Origin: a virus
DNA: 21,974 nt
Virus record (IMG/VR): IMGVR_UViG_3300008116_003133
Span: 1-21,974 of that record
Reading direction: 5' to 3' (one strand)
The notes beneath the pieces are model-generated. The model saw only the letters and a list, made by a program, of their open reading frames with translations. It searched no databases and was not told the DNA's origin. The translations under genes were made by a program, and so were the position numbers. Positions 1,865-13,489 of this stretch are shown here, piece by piece. The stretch's first letter is position 1. Each line of letters begins with the position of its first letter.

Positions 1865-1893
1865 ATTATATCAGAAGGTTTTTAGTTTGTCAA
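1865..1893 (-). promoter_or_regulatory. Perfect sigma70-type promoter for the 59-aa and CobT-like genes
   Basis: On the minus strand TTGACA (1893-1888) and TATAAT (1870-1865) are separated by exactly 17 bases, and TGA precedes the -10, giving an extended -10 element (TGnTATAAT). The expected transcription start near 1858 leaves a leader of about 24 bases containing the AGGAG site of the 59-aa gene. The -35 overlaps the stop codon of the glycosyltransferase gene. A host-sigma promoter of this quality suggests early expression. Confidence 0.85.
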
Positions 1894-2786
1894 GCCTTGA
1901 AATTAGTTGTCAATTTCATACCATACTCATTGGTACCAGTCGGTATTGTGATGTCTTTTTTGTAACGAAGTTCATTCTTCTTGAATGATGAATAGTCCAC
2001 ATAGTGGTGCCAGCGTTTGTATCTCCAGACCATTCGTGCTACATCTGGATGCATACGAACCAGCATTTCGGATTTGTTTCTGGTACCTTCAGCATTCACA
2101 CCATCTACCCAATGATTCTTTTCAACACCTTCTTTGTGGTAAAACTCTTCTGTGTTACCGCCTTTGACAGTTTGTGTTGCTGCTTTACCTTGAAGAAATG
2201 CATTGAACTGAATAGTACAATCACCATCTTTCAATACACGCAGACAGATATCAGTATCTTCATTGTACCTACCACGCCAACGATGTTTACAATCATTGGA
2301 GATAAGCAATGTGGAATAGATACGAGTGTTCTTTACATATGGTGGATAACTTTGATTTGGTGCAATGAAGAATCTATACTGAAAGCCAGAGATAGGCACA
2401 TTCTCAAAACGATCCACAAAATCTTCTGCTGCTTTGAAGATACAACCAGACTCTACACGAATACGATAGTTCTGGTGTAAACGATAGAAGTCCGAGATGT
2501 TATCATCAAGCACCCAATGTTTCTCTGCACCAATAGAAATAGAATGATCCCATGCAAAGTTTCGTGCACGACCAGGACCATCACCATGATTACTGAATGG
2601 TGCAACAATCAATGTAACATAATCACGAATCTTGAAGTTGTCTAGTGCTGCATCATATGCTTTCTCATCTTGTGGCTCAATCACAATATAATGAGGTACT
2701 TTCATACGGGACAATGATCTTGATGTGATCATTGTATCTGCACGACCTTTAGAAACGATATAAACTGGATGTGTTGGATTCGTCAT
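1890..2786 (-). CDS. GREB1-like / TET-JBP-associated-type glycosyltransferase, candidate DNA base modifier
   Basis: This 298-residue protein begins with a nucleotide-sugar-binding-like strand and loop (PVYIVSKGRAD, residues 7-17). It continues with APFSNHGDGPGRARNFAWDH (62-81), HWVLDDNISDFYRL (90-103, with a DD pair in the place of a GT-A DxD motif), RWRGRYNEDTDICLR (169-183) and FNAFLQGKAATQTVKGGNT (194-212). From memory these blocks match a phage family of GT-A glycosyltransferases related to eukaryotic GREB1 and predicted to glycosylate modified pyrimidines in DNA. Assignment is by remembered motifs, not by a search. The ATG has a GGAAAAG site upstream, and the first 38 bases overlap the end of the methyltransferase gene, so the two are probably coupled. 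A glycosyltransferase acting on another substrate is the main alternative. Confidence 0.7.
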   Translation of the reverse strand: MTNPTHPVYIVSKGRADTMITSRSLSRMKVPHYIVIEPQDEKAYDAALDNFKIRDYVTLIVAPFSNHGDGPGRARNFAWDHSISIGAEKHWVLDDNISDFYRLHQNYRIRVESGCIFKAAEDFVDRFENVPISGFQYRFFIAPNQSYPPYVKNTRIYSTLLISNDCKHRWRGRYNEDTDICLRVLKDGDCTIQFNAFLQGKAATQTVKGGNTEEFYHKEGVEKNHWVDGVNAEGTRNKSEMLVRMHPDVARMVWRYKRWHHYVDYSSFKKNELRYKKDITIPTGTNEYGMKLTTNFKA

Positions 2787-3540
2787 TTCTTTTCCATATT
2801 GTAGGTTTGTTGTTCCATATTTTACAGTTTACTTTTTGATATTCTTTTGTTTGTAAATGCTGATTGAATATCTTACTAATTTTATCTTGACTTGTTATTG
2901 TACCATAAACATCATACTGTGTAAAGTGTCCCATGCCCCATGTGTTGAATGAGTTGGCAATAATCATATGCTTTGGATTTATGGTATTGATGATATCATC
3001 CACATGCTCAATCGGATTGTAAATGTGTTCAAAGTATTCTGATGCCCACAGAATGTCAACTGGTTCTTCAATGTCATGAATAGATTCAATTAGATTGAAG
3101 CCAAATCTTTCTGCCATTATCTCACAGAGTTTCCATTGTTTGGTATCTTTTAGATTGATAGCATAGACTTTAGCATCAGGAAACACTTGCTTCAATAGAC
3201 ATGTGCTGTAACTTATACCACAACCAATGTCAACGATAACTTTAGCATTTACAAGTTCTGAAAAATGAGATGACTTGATGATGCGTTTGATATAGTCTCT
3301 GCTGTATGTTACAAAGCAATTGAATATATCAATGAAGTAATAATCATGGTTATATACTTCGTAGATGTTTCTGGTATCTTGATGTTCTAGATCATCATAC
3401 CATTTATTAGACAACTCAAGAAATATTTTGTCTGTCTTTCTAATAGACCTACACTCATCAGCATCTATCGTAAACAGACTACCATAGTCTTTGAGAAAGT
3501 ATTCAAATAAGACATTTGGTTTTTCTTTGAGAAAATCCAT
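2749..3540 (-). CDS. Class I SAM-dependent methyltransferase, substrate unknown
   Basis: The 263-residue product has an approximately 98-residue N-terminal region of unknown function, then a Rossmann-type methyltransferase core. Motif I is VIVDIGCGIS (101-110); an acidic-loop equivalent follows at KVYAINLKD. The segment ILWASEYFEHIYNPIEHV matches the motif around strand 4 in small-molecule and sugar methyltransferases. No DPPY or NPPY motif is seen, which argues against an ordinary adenine or cytosine-N4 DNA methyltransferase; no PC motif of cytosine-C5 enzymes is seen either. The start overlaps the stop of the 117-aa gene by one base (TAATG), and the end overlaps the glycosyltransferase by 38 bases. 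It could modify a sugar or a base intermediate made with the glycosyltransferase, but this is inference. Confidence 0.75.
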   Translation of the reverse strand: MDFLKEKPNVLFEYFLKDYGSLFTIDADECRSIRKTDKIFLELSNKWYDDLEHQDTRNIYEVYNHDYYFIDIFNCFVTYSRDYIKRIIKSSHFSELVNAKVIVDIGCGISYSTCLLKQVFPDAKVYAINLKDTKQWKLCEIMAERFGFNLIESIHDIEEPVDILWASEYFEHIYNPIEHVDDIINTINPKHMIIANSFNTWGMGHFTQYDVYGTITSQDKISKIFNQHLQTKEYQKVNCKIWNNKPTIWKRNDESNTSSLYRF

Positions 3541-3893
3541 TAGTCCTCAATCCATCTTTTCAATGAGTTTTCATCACGCTCAAGTTTTGGATACCAGATA
3601 GACTTTGTTTTCATGGTAAGATTTTGATCTACCAGTTTTGCAAACGCTTCATAGTCTTCCTGATTACGGAAGTGTAGATAGATTGTCTTGAATGTTTTCT
3701 TTTCATTCTGTTCAAATGCTGGCATGCCAACCCAATGCTTTTTCCATTCAGCATTGTGTATATCTACGCCATCTTCATCGGAATCTTCATCTTCACCAAA
3801 GAACCGATTCAAAGTAGGAGGTTGATATTCATCTGTCAACAACTCCATACAGTTTTCATACGATTCAGATTCTTGAACTTTGTTGTTTTCCAT
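3540..3893 (-). CDS. Small conserved phage-type protein with WVGMPAF and TKSIWYPK segments, function unknown
   Basis: The protein has 117 residues. The first 45 are acidic and probably flexible. The rest contains HWVGMPAFEQNEKKTFKTIY, then FRNQEDYEAFAKLVDQNLTM and TKSIWYPK. I recall small proteins with this pattern (W-GMP-F, HFR-EDYE-FA, TKSIWYP) in phages and mobile elements beside DNA methyltransferase genes, but their function is not known to me. The compact alpha/beta part looks like a partner or ParB-neighbour type domain rather than an enzyme; no catalytic motif is visible. The ATG (3893) has a GAGGAA site about 9 bases upstream and overlaps the deformylase end by 29 bases. The stop overlaps the methyltransferase start by one base. 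Confidence 0.7.
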   Translation of the reverse strand: MENNKVQESESYENCMELLTDEYQPPTLNRFFGEDEDSDEDGVDIHNAEWKKHWVGMPAFEQNEKKTFKTIYLHFRNQEDYEAFAKLVDQNLTMKTKSIWYPKLERDENSLKRWIED

Positions 3894-4461
3894 TCTTATG
3901 ATTCCTCACAATTTTCTTTACCAATTTAGTTGCTCTTTGTCTTGCCATCTTGAGTGCAAGAGGTTTTATATAATCAGTATATCTGATTCCATTCAAATGG
4001 TCAAGTTCATGTAGGTAACAACGAGCAGATAGTCCATCTAATCTTGCTTGTTTTACCTCACCGAATTCATCAGTAAACTCTACCTCAATCCATTTTGGTC
4101 GTTCAACATTTAGGAACAATGCAGGAAACGATAAGCAACCTTCTTTGCCTTTTTCCCATTCATCACTCTCATCAATAACTTTTGGATTGATACAGACTAA
4201 TTGAAAATCTTCTGTACCAATAACGAACATTCGTTCAGCAACACCACATTGATTAGCAGAAAGACCTAAACCGGAATATAACTTCATGGTAAGTTTCATT
4301 CGTTTTGCTAATGTTACCATTGCTGGTGCTGGAAATCCACCTGTATATAGTGGTATTTTTTGCTGAAGCATAAAGTAATCTTCACCAAAAACTTGTAGTG
4401 GTTCTACTTGTTCAACTTGCTGTATGCCAGCTGCGGTATCAATTGTTAGTATTTCACTCAT
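3865..4461 (-). CDS. def: Peptide deformylase
   Basis: Peptide deformylase removes the formyl group from the N-terminal methionine of nascent proteins, using a metal held by one cysteine and two histidines. All three family motifs are present: GLGLSANQCG (64-73), EGCLS with metal-ligand C109 (107-111), and HELDH (151-155) with ligands H151 and H155 and catalytic E152. The enzyme has 198 residues, with an extra N-terminal stretch of about 30 residues, and a basic tail (KKIVRNHKNGK) after the last motif. Deformylases are known from T4-like cyanophages, where they are thought to help process a large pulse of phage protein. The start overlaps the stop of gene 46 as ATGA. Confidence 0.92.
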   Translation of the reverse strand: MSEILTIDTAAGIQQVEQVEPLQVFGEDYFMLQQKIPLYTGGFPAPAMVTLAKRMKLTMKLYSGLGLSANQCGVAERMFVIGTEDFQLVCINPKVIDESDEWEKGKEGCLSFPALFLNVERPKWIEVEFTDEFGEVKQARLDGLSARCYLHELDHLNGIRYTDYIKPLALKMARQRATKLVKKIVRNHKNGKQQSSRI

Positions 4462-6167
4462 TTTATTATCCTTGAAAAATTCTTCACCTTATCAAATCGG
4501 ATTGTATTCATAAACTTATCTTGCAGTATGTCACCTTTATGGCTGATGACAAACAGATTTACTCCATCAAGTGTGTGTAGTATCTTCATCAAATCTTCTG
4601 TGCCACTAGTATCTAGGCTTGAATCAAACACCTCATCCAGTATCAACAGATTGGTATTGGTAGAGTTCTTTAGTTTTGCAATTGCTCTCCATGTCAGCAT
4701 CAATGCCATATCAATACGCTGCTTCTCACCCTCTGAGAAGTTATGATAACTAAAGTCATCACGGTGACGGGACTTGATTGTTTCTTTGAATGACTCATCA
4801 AGATTGAAGTTCACAAAGAAGTCCATACTGGTCAGATACTTGTTCACCAGTTTGTTTATCACAGGCAAATATTGTTTGATGATATTTGTTTTGATACCAG
4901 TATCTTTTAGTAATGTTGATGCTACGTCCAAATATGTCTTATCATTTATCAACTGCTTCAGTTCTTCTTGTGCTAGTTCAATTTGTGACTGAAGAGTATC
5001 AAGTACATCAATATCTGTGCTTTCTTTCTTTGGATTTCTAATTTGTTTTATTTCTTTTTCTAATCTTACAATGGTATCATTCAGACCTTTGATACCTGTA
5101 TTTGTGGTTGCTATCTGTACACGAACATTAGATAGATTTTTCTCTTCAGCTTTTTGTGTCCTCAACAGTGCTTCATGTGCAGATAGTTTTGCTTGTAGTT
5201 CTGTCAGACCACTAGTGAGTTCTTGTTCTTTTGTAGTAAGTTCTGTGAGTTGCCCCTCTTTAAACTCCAGGGTAATGGCTTGCCTACAGGTTGGGCAATC
5301 AGCATTGTGTTCATAGAAACTTCTATCTGTTCCCACTTTGGATATTTTGCCTTCAATCTGGCTCTCAATTTTTCTAAACGCAGCAACCTTCTTTTCATTT
5401 TCAGGAATGTGTGAGCATATATCTTGGAGCCTCTCTTTTGATCGTTCCAGATCGTCAATCTCTCCACGTAGGGTGCGAATTGTTTCTCTGTGCAGAAGTA
5501 TCTCTTCCTCATATTCTTTTACCTTTGCTTCAATATTTTCATTGAGTTTATCTTGGTGTTCTTTCTTGAGTTCATACTTCTGTTCAAGCAAAGAAATATC
5601 ACTCTTCTTTGCAACTGTTAGGTCTTTATTGTTTGACAGTCTTTCTTTTACCAGACTGTTCATTGTAGAAAAGATTTGAATGTCTAACAAATCTTCAATG
5701 ATAGCACGACGGTCAGCAGCAGATAACTGCATGAACGGTGTAAATGATGCTGAACCAAGTATAACGATCTGTGTAAAAGACTTGTAGTTTAGTTTGAGAA
5801 TAAACTTCTCTAGATAGTCTTGATAATCTCTTACAGCCGCATCTTGGTTCAGCAAAACGGCGTCTTGGTATATCTCAAACACATTTGGTTTGATACCACG
5901 AACAATTTTATATTCTTTATTACCAATAGAAAACTCAATCTCTACAACACAATCTCTGCCATTGATACTATTTAGGAGATTAGGCTTGTTTATGTTTCTA
6001 AATGGCTTGCCGAACAGACCAAAGCACAATGCATCAAGCATCGTTGACTTACCTGATCCATTTGTACCAACAACAAGCGTATTGGTATTACCATTTAGTT
6101 CAAGTTCAGTGAAATGGTTACCAGTTGATAATAAGTTTTTCCAGCGCAGTCGTTTAAATAAAATCAT
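4458..6167 (-). CDS. 46: Recombination endonuclease subunit gp46 (Rad50/SbcC-like ATPase)
   Basis: gp46 is the ATPase of the gp46-gp47 complex, which resects DNA ends for recombination-dependent replication and degrades host DNA. At 569 residues it is close to T4 gp46. The Walker A GTNGSGKS is at 34-41. A coiled coil surrounds the zinc hook CPTC (291-294), which dimerises the arms. The ABC signature FSEGEKQR is at 477-484 and Walker B LLILDE at 507-512. All motifs are intact. The start codon overlaps the gp47 stop (ATGA), as expected for translational coupling of the two subunits; the stop overlaps the deformylase start in the same way. Confidence 0.95.
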   Translation of the reverse strand: MILFKRLRWKNLLSTGNHFTELELNGNTNTLVVGTNGSGKSTMLDALCFGLFGKPFRNINKPNLLNSINGRDCVVEIEFSIGNKEYKIVRGIKPNVFEIYQDAVLLNQDAAVRDYQDYLEKFILKLNYKSFTQIVILGSASFTPFMQLSAADRRAIIEDLLDIQIFSTMNSLVKERLSNNKDLTVAKKSDISLLEQKYELKKEHQDKLNENIEAKVKEYEEEILLHRETIRTLRGEIDDLERSKERLQDICSHIPENEKKVAAFRKIESQIEGKISKVGTDRSFYEHNADCPTCRQAITLEFKEGQLTELTTKEQELTSGLTELQAKLSAHEALLRTQKAEEKNLSNVRVQIATTNTGIKGLNDTIVRLEKEIKQIRNPKKESTDIDVLDTLQSQIELAQEELKQLINDKTYLDVASTLLKDTGIKTNIIKQYLPVINKLVNKYLTSMDFFVNFNLDESFKETIKSRHRDDFSYHNFSEGEKQRIDMALMLTWRAIAKLKNSTNTNLLILDEVFDSSLDTSGTEDLMKILHTLDGVNLFVISHKGDILQDKFMNTIRFDKVKNFSRIIK

Positions 6168-7233: not shown

Positions 7234-7770
7234 TTAGATTATATCATCATCTAAAAAGTTGTCAAGTCCTACTAACTTTTTTACCTTCTTTTTCTTTTTA
7301 TTTTCTTCAAAGTTGTGGATAAACTCGGAGATGTTATCATACAATTCAAACTGTCTCATGTTACCATTTTCATCTTCATACATCTCACCCTCATCAAGCA
7401 AACCAAACTGTTGTGTGGCTTTATATTTGACATAAAGTTGTTTCTTCTCACGCATAATCCTACGTAGAAACGCATAGTAAATTATCTGTGTGAAGTATGC
7501 AAATGGATTCTTTGATTTGGCTGGATCAAAGTTACGGAAATACATTAGACAGTTCTCTACACCATCCGATATCATCTCATCACGATATGTGTATGAGATA
7601 AAGTTAGGCTTACGTGATAGATGTTCTGCAATCTTTAGAAAGCATTCACCAATATAGTCTGGTATCTTTGGTTCTTGTGTGCTATTAGTCTTGGCTTGTT
7701 CACACTCATCACGATACTTGATCAGTGCTGCCAGAAAATCAGCATTGTTTACGTAGTGTTTAGTTGTCAT
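7234..7770 (-). CDS. 55: Late-transcription sigma factor gp55
   Basis: gp55 replaces the host sigma factor on RNA polymerase and recognises the late promoter TATAAATA, exact copies of which occur in this window. The product has 178 residues, near T4 gp55. Its core, EMISDGVENCLMYFRNFDPA (65-84) followed by FAYFTQIIYYAFLRRI (90-105), corresponds to sigma region 2. A lysine-rich stretch leads to the C-terminal peptide GLDNFLDDDII, which resembles a sliding-clamp-binding tail; T4 gp55 binds gp45 through its C-terminus. The start overlaps the epimerase stop as ATGA, placing a core regulator at the end of the accessory sugar operon. Confidence 0.9.
   Translation of the reverse strand: MTTKHYVNNADFLAALIKYRDECEQAKTNSTQEPKIPDYIGECFLKIAEHLSRKPNFISYTYRDEMISDGVENCLMYFRNFDPAKSKNPFAYFTQIIYYAFLRRIMREKKQLYVKYKATQQFGLLDEGEMYEDENGNMRQFELYDNISEFIHNFEENKKKKKVKKLVGLDNFLDDDII
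7238..7265 (-). promoter_or_regulatory. Sigma70-type promoter inside the end of gene 55, reading into gene 47
   Basis: TTGACA (7265-7260) and TATAAT (7243-7238) are separated by 16 bases on the minus strand, with TGA before the -10. It is embedded in the last codons of gp55. The predicted transcription start, about 7 bases downstream, falls on the first base of the gp47 ATG, so the transcript would be leaderless or nearly so. Both hexamers match the consensus, but the coding overlap leaves chance possible. Confidence 0.55.
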
Positions 7771-8708
7771 ACATTACCATGTTTATTGTTCTTCAAATAT
7801 GTATAACCTTTGATTAGTTCTTCTACACCATCATCTAATGTGTGGTATGGATGCCAACCAGTTGCTTCTAACTTTGCATTTGATACAATGTAGTTACGCT
7901 GATCTGGATCTTTCTTGATATCACCTTCTACGATTGTAAAGTTAGGTATCTGTTTCTTGATTATCTCACATAGTTCTAACTTGGACACATTTGCAGTTGA
8001 TAAACCTACGTTGTAGATATTATTTTTCATCTCATCAAACTGATAGATTGCATGTAGAAATGCTTCACATACATCACGCACATGGATATAATTACGTTTG
8101 AAATGTCCTTCAAAGATAACAACATAGCCATCATTGACTGCACGGTACGTTAGATCATTTACCAGTAGATCGGTACGCATACGTGGTGACATACCAAATA
8201 CAGTAGCCAATCTGTAACTGATTGAGTTATCACGCTGCATCAATCTTTCTTCTACGGCAACTTTATCAATAGCATATTTGGAGATTGGACGAAGTGGTGA
8301 ATCTTCTGTGCAGAAATTATTTTCATCACCTGTACCATATGCTGAATTAGTTGTAGGCATAATGACACGTTGCTCATCCGATATACTATTCAACATCCAG
8401 AACATTGCATCTTTGTTTGTTGTGTCTGCACCAACAACATCTTTATTACAGAGTGGTGCACCAACCAATGCTGCCAATGGAATAATTATGTGTGCATCTT
8501 TGAGTAAAGGTGCCATATGTGCTGGATTACGAATGTCACCATTTACAATCTTTAGATTTTTATTATCACAAAGATGATTGAAACTTGTTTGACCAAACAT
8601 GAAGTTATCAATCACAGTTACTAGACAACCCATCTGTAAAAGATACTCAACAAGAATACTACCAATGTAACCAGCTCCACCAGTTACTAATACACGCCAC
8701 TGTTCCAT
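7767..8708 (-). CDS. NAD-dependent epimerase/dehydratase (extended SDR, nucleotide-sugar type)
   Basis: This 313-residue protein is an extended short-chain dehydrogenase. The NAD-binding motif TGGAGYIG is at 9-16, an acidic residue (D34) ends strand 2 and favours NAD over NADP, and the active site shows TNSAYG (120-125) with the YxxxK pair Y145 and K149. The family acts on nucleotide-linked sugars as epimerase, 4,6-dehydratase or 4-ketoreductase; which of these cannot be decided from sequence. It is separated from the upstream PLP-enzyme gene by one base (TAATATG) and overlaps gene 55 by ATGA, so it is the last member of the sugar block. Confidence 0.88.
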   Translation of the reverse strand: MEQWRVLVTGGAGYIGSILVEYLLQMGCLVTVIDNFMFGQTSFNHLCDNKNLKIVNGDIRNPAHMAPLLKDAHIIIPLAALVGAPLCNKDVVGADTTNKDAMFWMLNSISDEQRVIMPTTNSAYGTGDENNFCTEDSPLRPISKYAIDKVAVEERLMQRDNSISYRLATVFGMSPRMRTDLLVNDLTYRAVNDGYVVIFEGHFKRNYIHVRDVCEAFLHAIYQFDEMKNNIYNVGLSTANVSKLELCEIIKKQIPNFTIVEGDIKKDPDQRNYIVSNAKLEATGWHPYHTLDDGVEELIKGYTYLKNNKHGNV

Positions 8709-8709
8709 A

Positions 8710-9888
8710 TTATACCCTATTCAAAACTGATACGATTTCGTCAATTGCAATCTTACTCAAAGTTGGATAATTTCCAATATAGAATGAGTAGAAGTGCATG
8801 TGTTCTGTGTTTGGAAAATCTAAGTAGTGATCACCATATGTTGATGTCAAATATGGCTGACGTAGTTGATTGCCACCACCAGCAGAACCACGACGGAACT
8901 CTACTTCATTGTCACGCATCTTGTGCATGAGTCTTTGTACAAAATCTTTGTTAGCATACTCTGGCTGCAACACAATGTTGAATGCATAGTTACTGCAACC
9001 AGTGTAATTAAAATCAACTTTGTATTTTGTTCCATCTAACTTACTCATGAAGTATGATAAATTATCATTTCGTTTAGAAACATTCTCATCTAAATGTTTT
9101 AGTTGATTTTGACCTAATATGCCACCAATCTCTGTGTTACGCATGTTGTATGCTGGATATGCAAAGATAAAATCTGGATTCAGTTCAGGATACATGTCTT
9201 GATATGACTGTTTCATGCTATCAGAGCCACACTCACGTACCATACCATGTGAACGAAGCATACGTACAGTGTGATATACATTCTCATCGTTTGTACATAC
9301 CATACCACCTTCAATTGTGGACATGTGATGTGCAAAGTAGAATGAGAAGTTGGACATCCAACCAAAACTACCTAGCTTCTGACCATTGTGTGTTGCACCA
9401 TGTGATTCACATACATCTTCAATCAATGGTATATTGAGTGCTTGAAGTTTGAGTACCAGTTCATCTGTAAGACAGTTGAAGCCTTGTGCATATGTGAGAA
9501 ACACTGCACGTGTATTTGGTGTGATTGCTTTGAGAATACCTTCTGTACTCATACCAAGTGTGTCAAGATCAATGTCAACAAACACTGGCTTGAAACCACA
9601 CTGTAACACTGATGCTATATCTGATATCCATGTAAATGGTGGCACGATAACTTCACCGCCTTCTGGATGAAGAATCTTTAGCATCGTCATTGACAATAGA
9701 TTAGCAGAAGCACCTGAGTTTACAAACACAGAATACTTTACACCTAACCATTTACTCCATGCTTCTTCAAAAGCACGGCACTCTGGACCATTTGTTAGTT
9801 TTGGATTTTCTTTTTTTAGATGTTCTATTACCAAATCTAAATCTTCTCTAGTAATATTGTCAGACATTAGTGGATACTTCATCATCAC
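8710..9888 (-). CDS. DegT/DnrJ/EryC1-family PLP enzyme with His in place of the Schiff-base Lys (ColD-like sugar 3-dehydratase candidate)
   Basis: The 392-residue protein follows the DegT/DnrJ/EryC1/StrS fold: VNSGASANLL (57-66), VPPFTW (82-87), DIDLDTLGM (106-113), IEDVCESHGA (156-165) and SFYFAHHMSTIEGG (182-195). In aminotransferases of this family the position of H187 is the lysine that holds PLP. A histidine there is known in two deoxygenating enzymes, ColD (GDP-4-keto-6-deoxymannose 3-dehydratase) and the CDP-sugar dehydratase E1/RfbH. The cysteine cluster for the iron-sulfur centre of E1/RfbH is absent, so ColD-like chemistry, C3 deoxygenation of a 4-ketosugar, is the better guess. The start overlaps the sugar kinase stop (ATGA). 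Two further in-frame ATGs follow the first, so the exact start is uncertain by two codons. Confidence 0.85.
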   Translation of the reverse strand: MMMKYPLMSDNITREDLDLVIEHLKKENPKLTNGPECRAFEEAWSKWLGVKYSVFVNSGASANLLSMTMLKILHPEGGEVIVPPFTWISDIASVLQCGFKPVFVDIDLDTLGMSTEGILKAITPNTRAVFLTYAQGFNCLTDELVLKLQALNIPLIEDVCESHGATHNGQKLGSFGWMSNFSFYFAHHMSTIEGGMVCTNDENVYHTVRMLRSHGMVRECGSDSMKQSYQDMYPELNPDFIFAYPAYNMRNTEIGGILGQNQLKHLDENVSKRNDNLSYFMSKLDGTKYKVDFNYTGCSNYAFNIVLQPEYANKDFVQRLMHKMRDNEVEFRRGSAGGGNQLRQPYLTSTYGDHYLDFPNTEHMHFYSFYIGNYPTLSKIAIDEIVSVLNRV

Positions 9889-10868
9889 TCCATAATAATT
9901 TTTGAGCCTTCATAATCAAACTTGAAAGGCACCCATACATTGATTTCAGGTATTGCTTGTTTTATTCTATCTTGTGCATCAGGTGGTGCAAGAAACATAA
10001 AGAAACCACCACCACCTGCACCCATCAATTTACCACCGTATGCGCCTGCTTTGATAGCTTTATTGTATATTGTATCTATGTAATCAGTTGTAACACTGTC
10101 AGTAAGTTCACGCTTACGCTCCCACTGATACTTCAACAAGTCACCTATTTCATACATTTTACCATAGTTTTCAAAATAGGTCAACGCTGTTTCGGTCAAT
10201 GTGCCAATTTCATCTAACAATCTTTCTGATTTACCTTTTTTGATGGCATCAACTTGTTGCTTGGCATGTACATCAGATAATCTATCTATACCAGAAAAGC
10301 CTAACATGATATGTTGTTCAAACATATCCAAATAATCTGCATCTACTTTGAGATGTCTTACTTTGATACTGTTTCTTTCTAATTCTATTACACGAACACC
10401 ACCATACGCTGCCATAATTTGATCTTGTACACCAACTGACTCACCAATTTTGTTCTGTTCCACATTGATAGCAGTGATTGCCAACTGATATGGGTTGATT
10501 GGTATGTTGGCTTGTTTTGCTAGTGCATGAATCAGTCCAACAGTAAATGAAGAAGATGATCCAATGCCACTCCTAGCAGGTAAATCACCGTCATGAGTAA
10601 CAGATATACCATTTGGCACTCCAAAATATTTCAAGCATTCTCTAACAGAGGGATGATCTATTTCATCAATATCTTTTACACTTTCAATCTTTGAGTATAT
10701 AACTCTGTTCACATAATCAAAGTATGGTGGCAGTTTCTTCAAATTGATATAGCAATAGTGTGCCATAGCAGCAGAGATTAGTTTAGTTGGCTTGTTCTCA
10801 AACCATGCTGGATAATCTGTACCACCACCAAACAGAGACAACCTATATGGTGTTTTTGATATAATCAT
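9885..10868 (-). CDS. GHMP-family sugar kinase (HddA/fucokinase-like)
   Basis: The 327-residue protein carries the three GHMP kinase motifs: RLSLFGGGTDYP (9-20), PARSGIGSSSS ATP loop (97-107) and KLMGAGGGGFF (280-290). GVQDQIMAAYGG (146-157) is typical of the branch containing D-glycero-D-manno-heptose-7-phosphate kinase (HddA) and the kinase half of FKP. It would phosphorylate C1 of a sugar or heptose phosphate before nucleotidyl transfer. No nucleotidyltransferase is present in the window, so activation must depend on the host or on genes outside. Starts and stops overlap both neighbours by ATGA. Confidence 0.88.
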   Translation of the reverse strand: MIISKTPYRLSLFGGGTDYPAWFENKPTKLISAAMAHYCYINLKKLPPYFDYVNRVIYSKIESVKDIDEIDHPSVRECLKYFGVPNGISVTHDGDLPARSGIGSSSSFTVGLIHALAKQANIPINPYQLAITAINVEQNKIGESVGVQDQIMAAYGGVRVIELERNSIKVRHLKVDADYLDMFEQHIMLGFSGIDRLSDVHAKQQVDAIKKGKSERLLDEIGTLTETALTYFENYGKMYEIGDLLKYQWERKRELTDSVTTDYIDTIYNKAIKAGAYGGKLMGAGGGGFFMFLAPPDAQDRIKQAIPEINVWVPFKFDYEGSKIIME

Positions 10869-11395
10869 TTTTCATTATAATAATCACCATACTCCACAAG
10901 AATAGTTGCTTTACCATCTTGTCTCAAATATGCATTACGATATGCATCGTAAATCTGTCCTGGCTCTTTCAATCTAATTATATCTGTATTAGGACACATG
11001 AGTTTATATGCATCTGTATAATCACCAACATGTTGATGCTGTGGATGTAATGGTCGTTCTGAACCAATACCAGTTCGTATAATCATTCTTGGTTTATAGT
11101 CAGACATCATAGTAACTTTGTCAACATGATTCACAAGTTGATTAGTTGCACATATCAAAAAGTTCCATCGTGGGTAAATGCTCACAGGAATATAACCAGC
11201 AAGTGCAAGACCTAATGTGATACCCATCTGTGTATCTTCAAAGACTGGCATCTCAATAAGTTTTTCTTTCGGCACATCTTTCAATGTGTTTGACATTGCT
11301 GTGCCAGCATACTCTACTGCTTGTCCAATAAAGACCACACGTGGATCTTTTGCAAGCATGTCCATTGCAGATTTTAGTTCATCAAAATATTTCAA
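10865..11395 (-). CDS. E1-beta / transketolase pyrimidine-binding-domain protein (short)
   Basis: The product of 176 residues corresponds to the pyrimidine (Pyr) domain of E1-beta and transketolase proteins. MPVFEDTQMGITLGLALAGY (49-68) matches the block in which a glutamate (here E53) activates thiamine pyrophosphate in E1-beta proteins. The usual C-terminal transketolase domain is absent: family members are about 325 residues. The start codon is TTG, overlapping the alpha gene stop as TTGA; it is supported by GAGGG about 8 bases upstream and by the coupling. With the preceding protein it should form a heterotetrameric TPP enzyme. Substrate is unknown; acyl or aldehyde transfer to a sugar is suggested by its neighbours. 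Confidence 0.82.
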   Translation of the reverse strand: MKYFDELKSAMDMLAKDPRVVFIGQAVEYAGTAMSNTLKDVPKEKLIEMPVFEDTQMGITLGLALAGYIPVSIYPRWNFLICATNQLVNHVDKVTMMSDYKPRMIIRTGIGSERPLHPQHQHVGDYTDAYKLMCPNTDIIRLKEPGQIYDAYRNAYLRQDGKATILVEYGDYYNEK

Positions 11396-11991
11396 AACTG
11401 TACCCTCGTTCCAGCACCAGCATGTGGATATTTCGTTTCATATTGATAGTAATAGAGATATTCACTTTCAGTGTTCATATAAAATGATTCTTTTGCACCC
11501 CAAGTTTTTGCTGTATCAGTACACACTGATTTACCATTATCTTCTACAATAAATTTGATAGGTAATTTATGTTGTATGGAGTATTTCATATTCTCCATAA
11601 AGATACCTGCCTCTGCTGTCATATCACCAACAAAACAATACACTTTTGTATCAACACCTTTTCTTTTTATTGCCATTGCTGTACCAACAGCAATTGGTAT
11701 ATTGCCACCAACGATTGCTGTTGAGTAGATGTTGTACTCTGGATAGCAAAGTGAAATAGATTTACCATCAAGTATATCTTTCTCAAGTTGTTCTGGTGGT
11801 ACACCTTTAAGTAAGCATTGATAATGTGAACGCCATGAACAAAACACCCAATCTCTTGAACGGATGTCTTTAAAGATTTTTATCATCTCATTTTCATTAC
11901 CATAATACAAATGAATTGGCGCACGAATACGTGCATTGTTGAAATGATTTGCAATCTTATCTTCAAATGCTATAAGTTCATCTTTAGTCAC
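11392..11991 (-). CDS. E1-alpha-like thiamine-pyrophosphate-binding protein (short)
   Basis: This 199-residue protein resembles the TPP-binding alpha subunit of pyruvate/acetoin dehydrogenase E1. SWRSHYQCLLKGVPPE (52-67) and PEYNIYSTAIVGGNIPIAVG (84-103) match the conserved E1-alpha blocks. The TPP/Mg motif runs from GDMTAEAG (122-129) to VEDNGKS (149-155), spaced about 28 residues as in the family. E1-alpha proteins are normally 320-370 residues, so the C-terminal third is missing, but the end (YPHAGAGTRVQF) looks natural rather than broken. The ATG (11991) overlaps the radical SAM gene stop by eight bases, and the stop overlaps the TTG start of the beta gene. The absence of E2 or E3 genes argues against a dehydrogenase complex and for a carboligase. 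Confidence 0.82.
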   Translation of the reverse strand: MTKDELIAFEDKIANHFNNARIRAPIHLYYGNENEMIKIFKDIRSRDWVFCSWRSHYQCLLKGVPPEQLEKDILDGKSISLCYPEYNIYSTAIVGGNIPIAVGTAMAIKRKGVDTKVYCFVGDMTAEAGIFMENMKYSIQHKLPIKFIVEDNGKSVCTDTAKTWGAKESFYMNTESEYLYYYQYETKYPHAGAGTRVQF

Positions 11992-13489
11992 CTAGTATTT
12001 TCCTCTTCAATCTAATCTTGGACATCTGCTCAATATTCTGTCTTGATTTCAATCCAAATTTATTCTCAACAAGATTTAGAAATGGTTTATGTGAAAAGTA
12101 TTTGTGCCAAGCATCATCACGAAACTTCAATACTTCTGCACCAGTCAATGTCTTTGTTCGTAGTGGTGTACAATCGTATGATAGAAAAGCAAACTCATCA
12201 AATGTTTGTGGTAATTCCCATCCATTGTTGACTGCTTCCATGTACAATGGACTACCTGGTAATGCCATTGCTGCATAGAAGTTCGCATGTTCACAATTCA
12301 ATTCTAATGCAAGGTCTAGTGTCTCTTGCATTGTTTCCATCGTATCTTCTGGAAAACCAAACATGTAATTACCAAGTACATTGATGCCAGCATCTTTGAT
12401 ATCTTGTACAACTTCACGAATATCAACTTGTTTGAACTTACCTTTATCAATCTCTAAACGAACTTGTGGATTACCTGCTTCAATACCTAATGCTAACCAA
12501 TTTACACCAGCATCTTTGAATAATTGTAATTGATCTTTACGAACAGAATCTACACGTGCATATGCCCAGAAGTTGAATTCCATACCACGTTGTTTGATGC
12601 CTTCAAGAATTGGTATGTAATATTTTTTATTCAGAAAGAACATCTCATCAGTTAAACGAACTGTTCGTACACCTCTTTCATACAAATATTCAAACTCTTT
12701 GAGCATCAATTCAGGTGACCAGAATCTCATGCCACGTGAGTCAGAAGAAACTGTACCTTGTGTGTAAGATGTACGATTGACAATATTGATCATACAAAAG
12801 TTACAGCCAAAAGAACATCCTAATGATGTAGAAATTGCAGCAAATGGTGTACGACCCTCATCTAAAAAGTTTGTATGCCAATAATGAGCACGATACTTAT
12901 TTAATTCCACTAAGTCCCATGCATAACCAGGCATCACACGATCCATATCTTCTGTCTTTACAATCTCACCGGGCGCACCAGTTGCAGCAAAGCCATGTTT
13001 CTTGTATACCAGACCACGAACTTTATCTAACTCATCAACATAGTTTGTCTGTAACAAATCTAATAAACCATATACACCCTCATTGATGAACACAAAATCA
13101 ACATATGATAGACCAATTACTTCAAACGGTAATGCAGATGCGTGTGAACCAATGAATACAATTTTAATTGAAGGTCGTGAGAGTTTGAGTTGTTGTGCTA
13201 GTTTGGTAGCACCAATCATCATCGTTGTGCCTGAGTTTGGATTTTGTCCGTATAGAACAAAGACTGCTATATCTGTGTCTGTTTCTGCAATACAGTGTGC
13301 AGCATGTTCATAATCATGTGATGGATCAGCATCAAAATCTAGAATACATGGATCATAACCTTCAACACGAACAGCATTAGCTAATAATAATGCCCATGTC
13401 GGAGGTTCAATAGCAGAATACTTATCTGCAAGTCCTTGGTATGCTTGTGCAGCACTACTTGGTATAACGAATGTCACCACTTTTGACAT
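11984..13489 (-). CDS. Radical SAM enzyme with N-terminal cobalamin-binding-like domain
   Basis: The protein has 501 residues. Residues 1-150 form a Rossmann-like domain of the cobalamin-binding type (LLLANAVRVEGYDPCILDFD, IVFIGSHAS, FVFINEGVYGLLDLL). The DxHxxG histidine motif is not seen, so any cobalamin would be bound base-off without the lower His ligand. The radical SAM cluster motif CSFGCNFC (C225, C229, C232) follows, then RLTDEMFFLN, YARVDS, LALGIEAGN and NYMFGFPEDT, blocks of the B12-binding radical SAM family. Such enzymes methylate or rearrange unreactive carbons. The chemistry here cannot be assigned; methylation or ring formation on a sugar or lipid are possibilities. It opens the accessory block and follows the Sm-like gene after 14 bases, with AAAGGA as ribosome site. 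Confidence 0.9.
   Translation of the reverse strand: MSKVVTFVIPSSAAQAYQGLADKYSAIEPPTWALLLANAVRVEGYDPCILDFDADPSHDYEHAAHCIAETDTDIAVFVLYGQNPNSGTTMMIGATKLAQQLKLSRPSIKIVFIGSHASALPFEVIGLSYVDFVFINEGVYGLLDLLQTNYVDELDKVRGLVYKKHGFAATGAPGEIVKTEDMDRVMPGYAWDLVELNKYRAHYWHTNFLDEGRTPFAAISTSLGCSFGCNFCMINIVNRTSYTQGTVSSDSRGMRFWSPELMLKEFEYLYERGVRTVRLTDEMFFLNKKYYIPILEGIKQRGMEFNFWAYARVDSVRKDQLQLFKDAGVNWLALGIEAGNPQVRLEIDKGKFKQVDIREVVQDIKDAGINVLGNYMFGFPEDTMETMQETLDLALELNCEHANFYAAMALPGSPLYMEAVNNGWELPQTFDEFAFLSYDCTPLRTKTLTGAEVLKFRDDAWHKYFSHKPFLNLVENKFGLKSRQNIEQMSKIRLKRKILGD

Follow-up and report, generated by a model that had tools for sequence, protein, structure and literature searches.

A candidate DNA-glycosylation cassette in a T4-like phage combines a TAGT glycosyltransferase, its separated N-terminal module and a probable O-methyltransferase

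The TET-associated glycosyltransferases (TAGTs) of phages are a known class, reportedly defined in an analysis of 2013. Their Pfam family, PF20691, is that of gentiobiosyl-hydroxymethylcytosine (HMC) synthesis in phage T6 (PMC13216743), and a 2026 study found a TAGT but neither an alpha- nor a beta-glucosyltransferase (alpha-GT, beta-GT), the enzymes expected to act ahead of it, in 288 of 753 phage genomes, leaving its role there open (PMC13216743). Here we describe a TAGT in a fragment of a T4-like phage genome, the IMG/VR record IMGVR_UViG_3300008116_003133, which was analyzed over its whole length of 21,974 bp and is called the window below. The enzyme is encoded by the third of three overlapping genes on the minus strand, the strand that carries all genes of interest, and we assign the products of 117, 263 and 298 amino acids (aa) to a TAGT N-terminal module, a probable O-methyltransferase and the TAGT itself (Table 1). 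On balance, we favour the reading that this trio is a DNA-glycosylation cassette, in which the TAGT and the module would put a sugar on DNA and the methyltransferase would cap that sugar.

The 298-aa protein matches PF20691 with an E-value of 2.3e-43 (149 bits, against a curated cut-off of 27.5) and PHROG 842 (phrog_842) with an E-value of 1.5e-46, which bears out the glycosyltransferase call of an initial annotation made from the sequence alone and places the protein in the TAGT family. PF20691 was its only Pfam match; the initial annotation had likened the protein to GREB1-type enzymes. Its nearest cultured relatives, at 44-53% identity by tblastn, are found in the Aeromonas phages avDM12-TAAL, Ah1, phiAS5, Aeh1 and 65, Tenacibaculum phage PTm1, Pectobacterium phage POP12 and Vibrio phages. 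The same search did not reach the T6 enzyme Ggt, the family member of known product, which shares 19% identity with the window TAGT in the TAGT alignment; the PF20691 match of Ggt has an E-value of 4.8e-11, compared with 1e-33 to 1e-63 for relatives of the window enzyme. R75, D94-D95 and E176-D177 are among the residues that are invariant in a ten-member alignment that includes T6 Ggt and divergent second TAGTs; from general knowledge of GT-A enzymes, we take D94-D95 to be the metal/donor site and E176-D177 the region of the catalytic base. The TAGT is the best conserved protein of its neighbourhood, with a median identity to the window protein of 82% over 79 loci, a figure biased upward by the choice of these loci by TAGT similarity; the medians for gp46, gp23 and the 117-aa protein, in the loci holding them, are 54%, 66% and 55%. 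In a 118-kb and a 54-kb contig the TAGT lies in two overlapping frames (L153/L152, 5325-6240), which represents either a frameshift or a sequencing error.

A sequence search for solved structures resembling the TAGT returned none. The structure predicted for a fused relative with 72% identity to the window TAGT contains a confident GT-A domain, with a predicted local distance difference test (pLDDT) score mostly above 90 in the TAGT part, and on this model the 298-aa protein is predicted to have a GT-A fold. Foldseek matched the model to GT-A enzymes at E-values of 5.6e-6 and weaker with low template-modelling (TM) scores, among them lysyl hydroxylase LH3, AvpGT (solved with Ara-A) and heparosan synthase. 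By the initial annotation, a role in DNA modification would be contradicted if the best structural match proved to be an enzyme that glycosylates protein or polysaccharide; nominally this is what was found, LH3 being the top PDB match, but the result discriminates little, the GT-A matches being weak and generic.

The 117-aa protein has no match in Pfam, PHROG or NCBIfam, and all its matches in 50,697 phage records fall within TAGT genes, in their N-terminal region. Residues 53-117 align before the catalytic domain in the TAGTs of Aeh1, Ah1, phiAS5, 65 and PTm1/PTm5, profile searches found fused module-TAGT proteins also in Kuja, POP12 and 1.124.O, and in three metagenomic contigs (L159, L166, L167) the fused TAGT has two module copies. 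Judged by these alignments, the 117-aa protein is the separated N-terminal module of the TAGT; it had at first been assigned to a family associated with DNA methyltransferases, an assignment that its last ~65 residues, which are the module, do not support. Vibrio phage Kuja (Ackermannviridae; L086, 3575-6263) encodes two TAGTs in tandem, both of which carry an N-terminal module.

The pairing holds from either side. In a viral-contig scan seeded solely with the 117-aa protein, a TAGT was fused to the module or lay no more than about 1.1 kb downstream wherever the contig reaches that far; in bacterial genomes it stood beside the module at 10 of 10 module loci, and all module matches with E<1 in the phage records were in or adjoining a TAGT. 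A 41-residue module probe, followed up to an E-value of 10, returned known TAGT contexts and one chance-level match from phages, and outside a TAGT context only chance-level matches from the plasmids searched. Conversely, among 128 unique TAGTs with enough flanking sequence, from a second set found through the TAGT, 120 have the module fused or adjacent (115 just upstream, four fused, one downstream) and eight have none detected; the first TAGT set agrees, its exceptions all lying near contig ends. The module is thus a near-obligate partner of the TAGT in the window's clade.

Two features of the module bear on what it might bind. About half of the upstream module genes in the 128-TAGT set are long (~205-250 aa), the module belongs to a longer protein in some half of the small-phage loci, and 23 of the 40 long modules scanned in related loci match ParB_N; Pfam found no ParB_N in the 117-aa protein of the window itself. 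In phages, DNA methyltransferases are frequently accompanied by ParB-type domains (PMC12783734), and the presence of this companion domain in the long modules is our main independent reason for regarding DNA as the likely target. Many TAGTs of small-phage loci also lie close to terminase-like genes, as recognized by eye. A prophage-like, chromosomal version of the cassette is seen in Pantoea stewartii (L232) and an Erwinia sp. (L233), where genes for an MptE-like protein, a GT9-type glycosyltransferase, a methyltransferase, a ParB_N-module protein and a TAGT (2395-6066) adjoin terminase-like genes.

The modules of T4-like phages begin with a low-complexity, acidic and disordered N-terminus, which in the window contains PPTLNRFFGEDED. 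The motif TLNRFFGEDED at residues 27-37 resembles the C-termini of the late sigma factor gp55 (GLDNFLDDDII in the window and SPSLDFLYEAND in T6) and of the DNA polymerase gp43 in related contigs (SLDSFFL, SLESFFA). Both gp55 and gp43 bind the sliding clamp through such C-terminal ends. Of 78 T4-like N-termini, 72 contain the motif under a loose definition, against a mean of 13.6 and a maximum of 24 after shuffling, and 46 under a strict one, against a mean of 1.3 and a maximum of 5; these counts measure conservation rather than independent events since the carriers share ancestry. In the long ParB-type and the shortest module forms the motif is not enriched above shuffle. By this resemblance, T4-like modules carry a putative clamp-binding peptide whose partner would be gp45. 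A clamp-guided DNA glycosyltransferase has a precedent, since the alpha-GT of T4 co-purifies with gp45 (PMC13216743).

The 263-aa protein (METHYLTRANSFERASE) has weak class I methyltransferase matches in Pfam and NCBIfam, the match to Methyltransf_31 (E-value 1.4e-5) falling below that model's cut-off and those to UbiG and trans-aconitate methyltransferase models also being weak. Its AlphaFold model (pLDDT 91.3) has as best PDB neighbours in Foldseek mostly small-molecule O-methyltransferases, at TM-scores of about 0.4-0.5, and the protein contains neither of the DNA-methyltransferase catalytic motifs [DNS]PP[YFWHC] and PC. A DNA methyltransferase is therefore not what the protein resembles, and from the predicted fold we consider it a probable small-molecule or sugar O-methyltransferase. 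Cultured phages gave no match to it at an E-value of 1e-3. Methyltransferases of this type occur in 27 of 246 unique TAGT loci, in 26 of them within 1.3 kb of the TAGT, and a viral-contig scan seeded with the window methyltransferase returned only contigs that contain a TAGT. Unrelated small phages among these have differing gene orders: module-methyltransferase-TAGT (L376), nucleotidyltransferase-methyltransferase-ParB.module-TAGT (L344), ParB.module-TAGT-methyltransferase followed by a terminase-like gene (L308) and TAGT-methyltransferase (L349).

In other loci the methyltransferase's slot is taken by a divergent second TAGT, a glycosyltransferase of GT-B type or an FkbM methyltransferase, and in a single case (L060) by an HNH-like gene. 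Within 1.3 kb of a TAGT we counted 12 second TAGTs, nine GT-B enzymes, six FkbM methyltransferases and 14 HldE/TagD-type nucleotidyltransferases, next to four 2-oxoglutarate (2OG) oxygenases and two C5-methyltransferases; these counts, like those of the methyltransferase, include close relatives and show recurrence, not rates. As enzymes that build or decorate sugars outnumber base-oxidizing ones near the TAGT, we assign the methyl group to the sugar. In 14 unique loci the small HldE/TagD-type nucleotidyltransferase belongs to the TAGT operon, where two arrangements occur (L330:4990-5391, L342:6915-7325), and relatives of it also lie between gp55 and gp47 in T4-like contigs.

Both gene sequence and gene order (UvsW, UvsY, gp55, gp47 and gp46, with gp19-, gp21-, gp22- and gp23-type genes) mark the window as T4-like; no tRNA was found in it. 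Downstream of gp46 follow a peptide deformylase gene, the genes of the 117-, 263- and 298-aa proteins, a small open reading frame (ORF) and a VWA/peptidase-like gene. The deformylase gene overlaps the 117-aa gene by 29 nt, the 117- and 263-aa genes overlap by 1 nt and the 263- and 298-aa genes by 38 nt. The cultured cyanophage S-RIM2 has the same order of gp55, gp47, gp46 and peptidase, with only small hypothetical ORFs between gp46 and the peptidase gene and no TAGT in its genome, so at this syntenic position the trio resembles an island. All three proteins are conserved across many independent contigs. The trio is a real, recurring unit of overlapping genes, as the initial annotation had proposed, since the same methyltransferase family recurs in the TAGT cassettes of several unrelated phages.

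Table 1. Positions of the cassette and of other features in the window
Feature	Position	Strand	Basis or remark
TAGT glycosyltransferase, 298 aa	1890..2786	-	Pfam PF20691, PHROG 842
D94-D95 of 'WVLDDN', presumed GT-A metal/donor site	2502..2507	-	Invariant across the window TAGT, T6 Ggt and the divergent second TAGTs
E176-D177 of 'NEDTD', presumed catalytic-base region	2256..2261	-	Invariant in the ten-member TAGT alignment
Class I S-adenosylmethionine (SAM) methyltransferase, 263 aa, probable O-methyltransferase	2749..3540	-	Weak profiles and predicted fold
Stand-alone TAGT N-terminal module, 117 aa	3540..3893	-	Same domain fused or adjacent to TAGT elsewhere
Conserved module core, residues 50-117 (W..GMP...KTKSIWYP...RW)	3543..3746	-	Split and fused modules aligned together
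Putative sliding-clamp-binding motif TLNRFFGEDED, residues 27-37	3783..3815	-	Resembles gp55 and gp43 C-termini
Peptide deformylase gene	3865..4461	-	PF01327, E 4.9e-37; immediately upstream of the 117-aa gene
Sugar-nucleotide biosynthesis cluster	7767..13489	-	Flanked by gp55 and the neighbour of uvsW

In the mechanism that we propose, the TAGT would move a sugar from a nucleotide-sugar donor to phage DNA, to which the module would direct it. In T4-like phages the N-terminal peptide of the module would bind the gp45 sliding clamp, so that modification would follow replication; in many other phages the ParB_N domain of the module protein would do the directing. The 263-aa methyltransferase would then O-methylate, and thereby cap, the transferred sugar, and in related loci the FkbM methyltransferases or second glycosyltransferases of the slot could extend or decorate the same glycan. 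A methyl-capped sugar on the phage's own DNA would probably be a camouflage against bacterial defences, potentially protecting it from host nucleases, and one made by a route that known DNA-sugar pathways do not explain.

A sugar attached to a pyrimidine hydroxyl presupposes that hydroxyl, and hence an enzyme that makes it. As the window is the whole record and only a fragment of a genome, gene content beyond it can be read only through relatives. No match to PF00303, the thymidylate synthase (TS) family that includes hydroxymethylases, was found in relatives' contigs of 165, 161, 150, 118 and 114 kb and smaller, under settings that detected T6 gp42 at 1.7e-16; completeness is not stated for these contigs, so that this and the other absences from them are suggestive only. 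The expectation of a hydroxymethylase elsewhere in the genome was not supported. The alpha-GT family PF11440 was likewise missing from the window's relatives (T6 control, 5.6e-260), the C5-methyltransferase family PF00145 from the large T4-like relatives, and TET/JBP (PF12851) from 27 records in a search in which no control genome was positive. Aeh1 and 65, deposited as complete, have an ordinary thymidylate synthase as their sole clear PF00303 match; PTm1 has a second PF00303 protein, annotated as a pyrimidine hydroxymethylase. A few small loci (L163, L229) have a C5-methyltransferase close to the TAGT; the short contig L229, from a record titled as a Mycoplasmataceae MAG (metagenome-assembled genome), combines a C5-cytosine methyltransferase with module and TAGT (371-2718).

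As candidates for the missing hydroxylase, the 2OG oxygenases PF13640 and PF13759 were set aside: they are sporadic and present in few TAGT relatives, while the TAGT-less S-RIM2 has four PF13759 genes, the most of any. The 58 gene clusters common to three large TAGT contigs appear to be T4-like core genes, ThyX, ribonucleotide reductase and a deaminase, and no shared hydroxylase was recognized among them by eye. When 79 ORFs from the early and sugar regions of the 161-kb relative were compared with Pfam, the families listed included one PF13759 oxygenase but no TET. Two small Vibrio-phage genomes share mainly the TAGT, a helicase and a few weaker matches, and therefore no common partner enzyme. 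It is conceivable, though we think it rather unlikely, that an O-methylated sugar is placed on DNA without a TS-type hydroxymethylase or TET, either directly on a canonical base or on a hydroxyl made by an unrecognized enzyme.

Several points weigh against a DNA-glycosylation cassette. The window's TAGT clade lies far from T6 Ggt, DNA as its acceptor is inferred, and a survey of the Tevenvirinae lists an Aeh1 glucosyltransferase only as one that 'presumably modifies DNA', with the base unknown (PMC8056088). The clamp motif was defined post hoc, and relatedness among the loci tempers both its counts and those of the slot. A hydroxyl-linked sugar needs a base-hydroxylating enzyme, and none consistently accompanies the TAGT in the relatives searched. 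The top structural neighbours of the TAGT are protein and polysaccharide glycosyltransferases, which would suit a TAGT set that modifies a protein, a tRNA or a glycan of the host surface; such a modification might, for instance, serve to block superinfection or to change the machinery of the host. Such phages do carry other sugar genes, including the sugar-nucleotide cluster of the window, but the family tie to the DNA-acting T6 enzyme, the ParB_N-containing modules, the terminase-like genes near the TAGT in many small phages and the confinement of the clamp-like motif to T4-like members all point to DNA, and we consider a non-DNA target unlikely. That the methyltransferase is an unrelated passenger, overlapping the TAGT by chance, would agree with its absence from most TAGT loci and with the HNH-like gene found once in its slot; its closeness to the TAGT in nearly all loci that have it, across several unrelated phages with differing gene orders, and the TAGT in every contig recovered by the scan seeded with it make this decidedly unlikely.

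If DNA is the acceptor, the hydroxyl could still come from a known pathway. One possibility is a second layer as in T6: a deoxycytidine monophosphate (dCMP) hydroxymethylase gene would lie beyond the window, an alpha- or beta-GT would attach the first glucose and the TAGT the second sugar. The activity reported for the T2/T6 member of the family (PMC13216743) and the fragmentary nature of the window would allow it, but it is very unlikely given the missing PF00303 and PF11440 matches in the relatives' contigs searched, whose completeness is not stated, T6 being detected with both models, and the single, ordinary thymidylate synthase of Aeh1 and 65; beta-GT (PF09198) lay outside the search. We are equally sceptical that a C5-methyltransferase and a TET/JBP enzyme make 5-hydroxymethylcytosine for the TAGT to glycosylate, with the 263-aa protein as the DNA methyltransferase. 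The family is named for its association with TET, and the C5-methyltransferases of L163 and L229 would fit, but the PF12851 search of 27 records, in which no control genome was positive, and the PF00145 search of the large T4-like relatives found nothing, the 263-aa protein lacks the catalytic motifs and the oxygenases fail to track the TAGT.

The donor of the sugar could possibly be supplied by the cluster between gp55 and uvsW, which encodes an epimerase, an RfbH-like pyridoxal-phosphate enzyme with His-His at the usual lysine position, an HddA-like kinase, the beta and alpha halves of a thiamine-pyrophosphate enzyme and a B12 radical SAM protein. Its gene content suggests the capacity to make an unusual deoxy or branched nucleoside-diphosphate sugar. 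The cluster is kept in the closest relatives and is absent from many TAGT-positive loci, so it is dispensable for the TAGT. Peptide deformylase, the 5' neighbour of the module gene in most T4-like TAGT loci, probably stands outside the mechanism.

Our analysis adds the companions of the TAGT in the window's clade: the N-terminal module, which is near-obligate, and a slot occupied by sugar-tailoring enzymes. The module, its split and ParB forms and the methyltransferase partner are undescribed in the openly readable literature that we searched (subscription papers lay outside it), and the reassignment of the small gene and of the methyltransferase makes the cassette more interesting. The cultured carriers Aeh1, 65, PTm1 and Kuja allow the modification to be sought directly, and the parts are separable and individually deletable. 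If our reading is correct, an unmapped DNA-glycan chemistry extends across hundreds of phage contigs and would be useful for understanding modification-dependent restriction.

Among described systems, the T6 gene ggt (beta-glucosyl-HMC-alpha-glucosyltransferase), which works with gp42 and alpha-GT, shares with the window enzyme the Pfam family, the conserved D-D and E-D positions and a T4-like genome, and the alpha-GT of T4 is a clamp partner. It differs in sequence (19% identity) and in having no N-terminal module in the alignment, and neither gp42 nor alpha-GT was found in the window's relatives. CmoX/CmoA of cyanophage S-B43 (PMC12783734) also combines a base-modifying enzyme with a ParB-type domain in a phage, although the modification there is carboxymethylation rather than glycosylation and the window module lacks ParB_N. 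The arabinosyl-deoxycytidine pathway of the Mosigvirus phages RB69 and NP (PMC13390438) is again that of T4-like phages, equipped with sugar-nucleotide genes of their own and with DNA-acting glycosyltransferases; it relies on a TS-family 5-hydroxy-dCMP synthase, whereas no TS-family gene was found in the window's large relatives. The solitary TAGTs of Aeh1, phiAS5, 65 and PTm1 form one group with the window enzyme at 44-53% identity; in these phages module and TAGT are one protein, whereas in the window they are split, with the methyltransferase between them.

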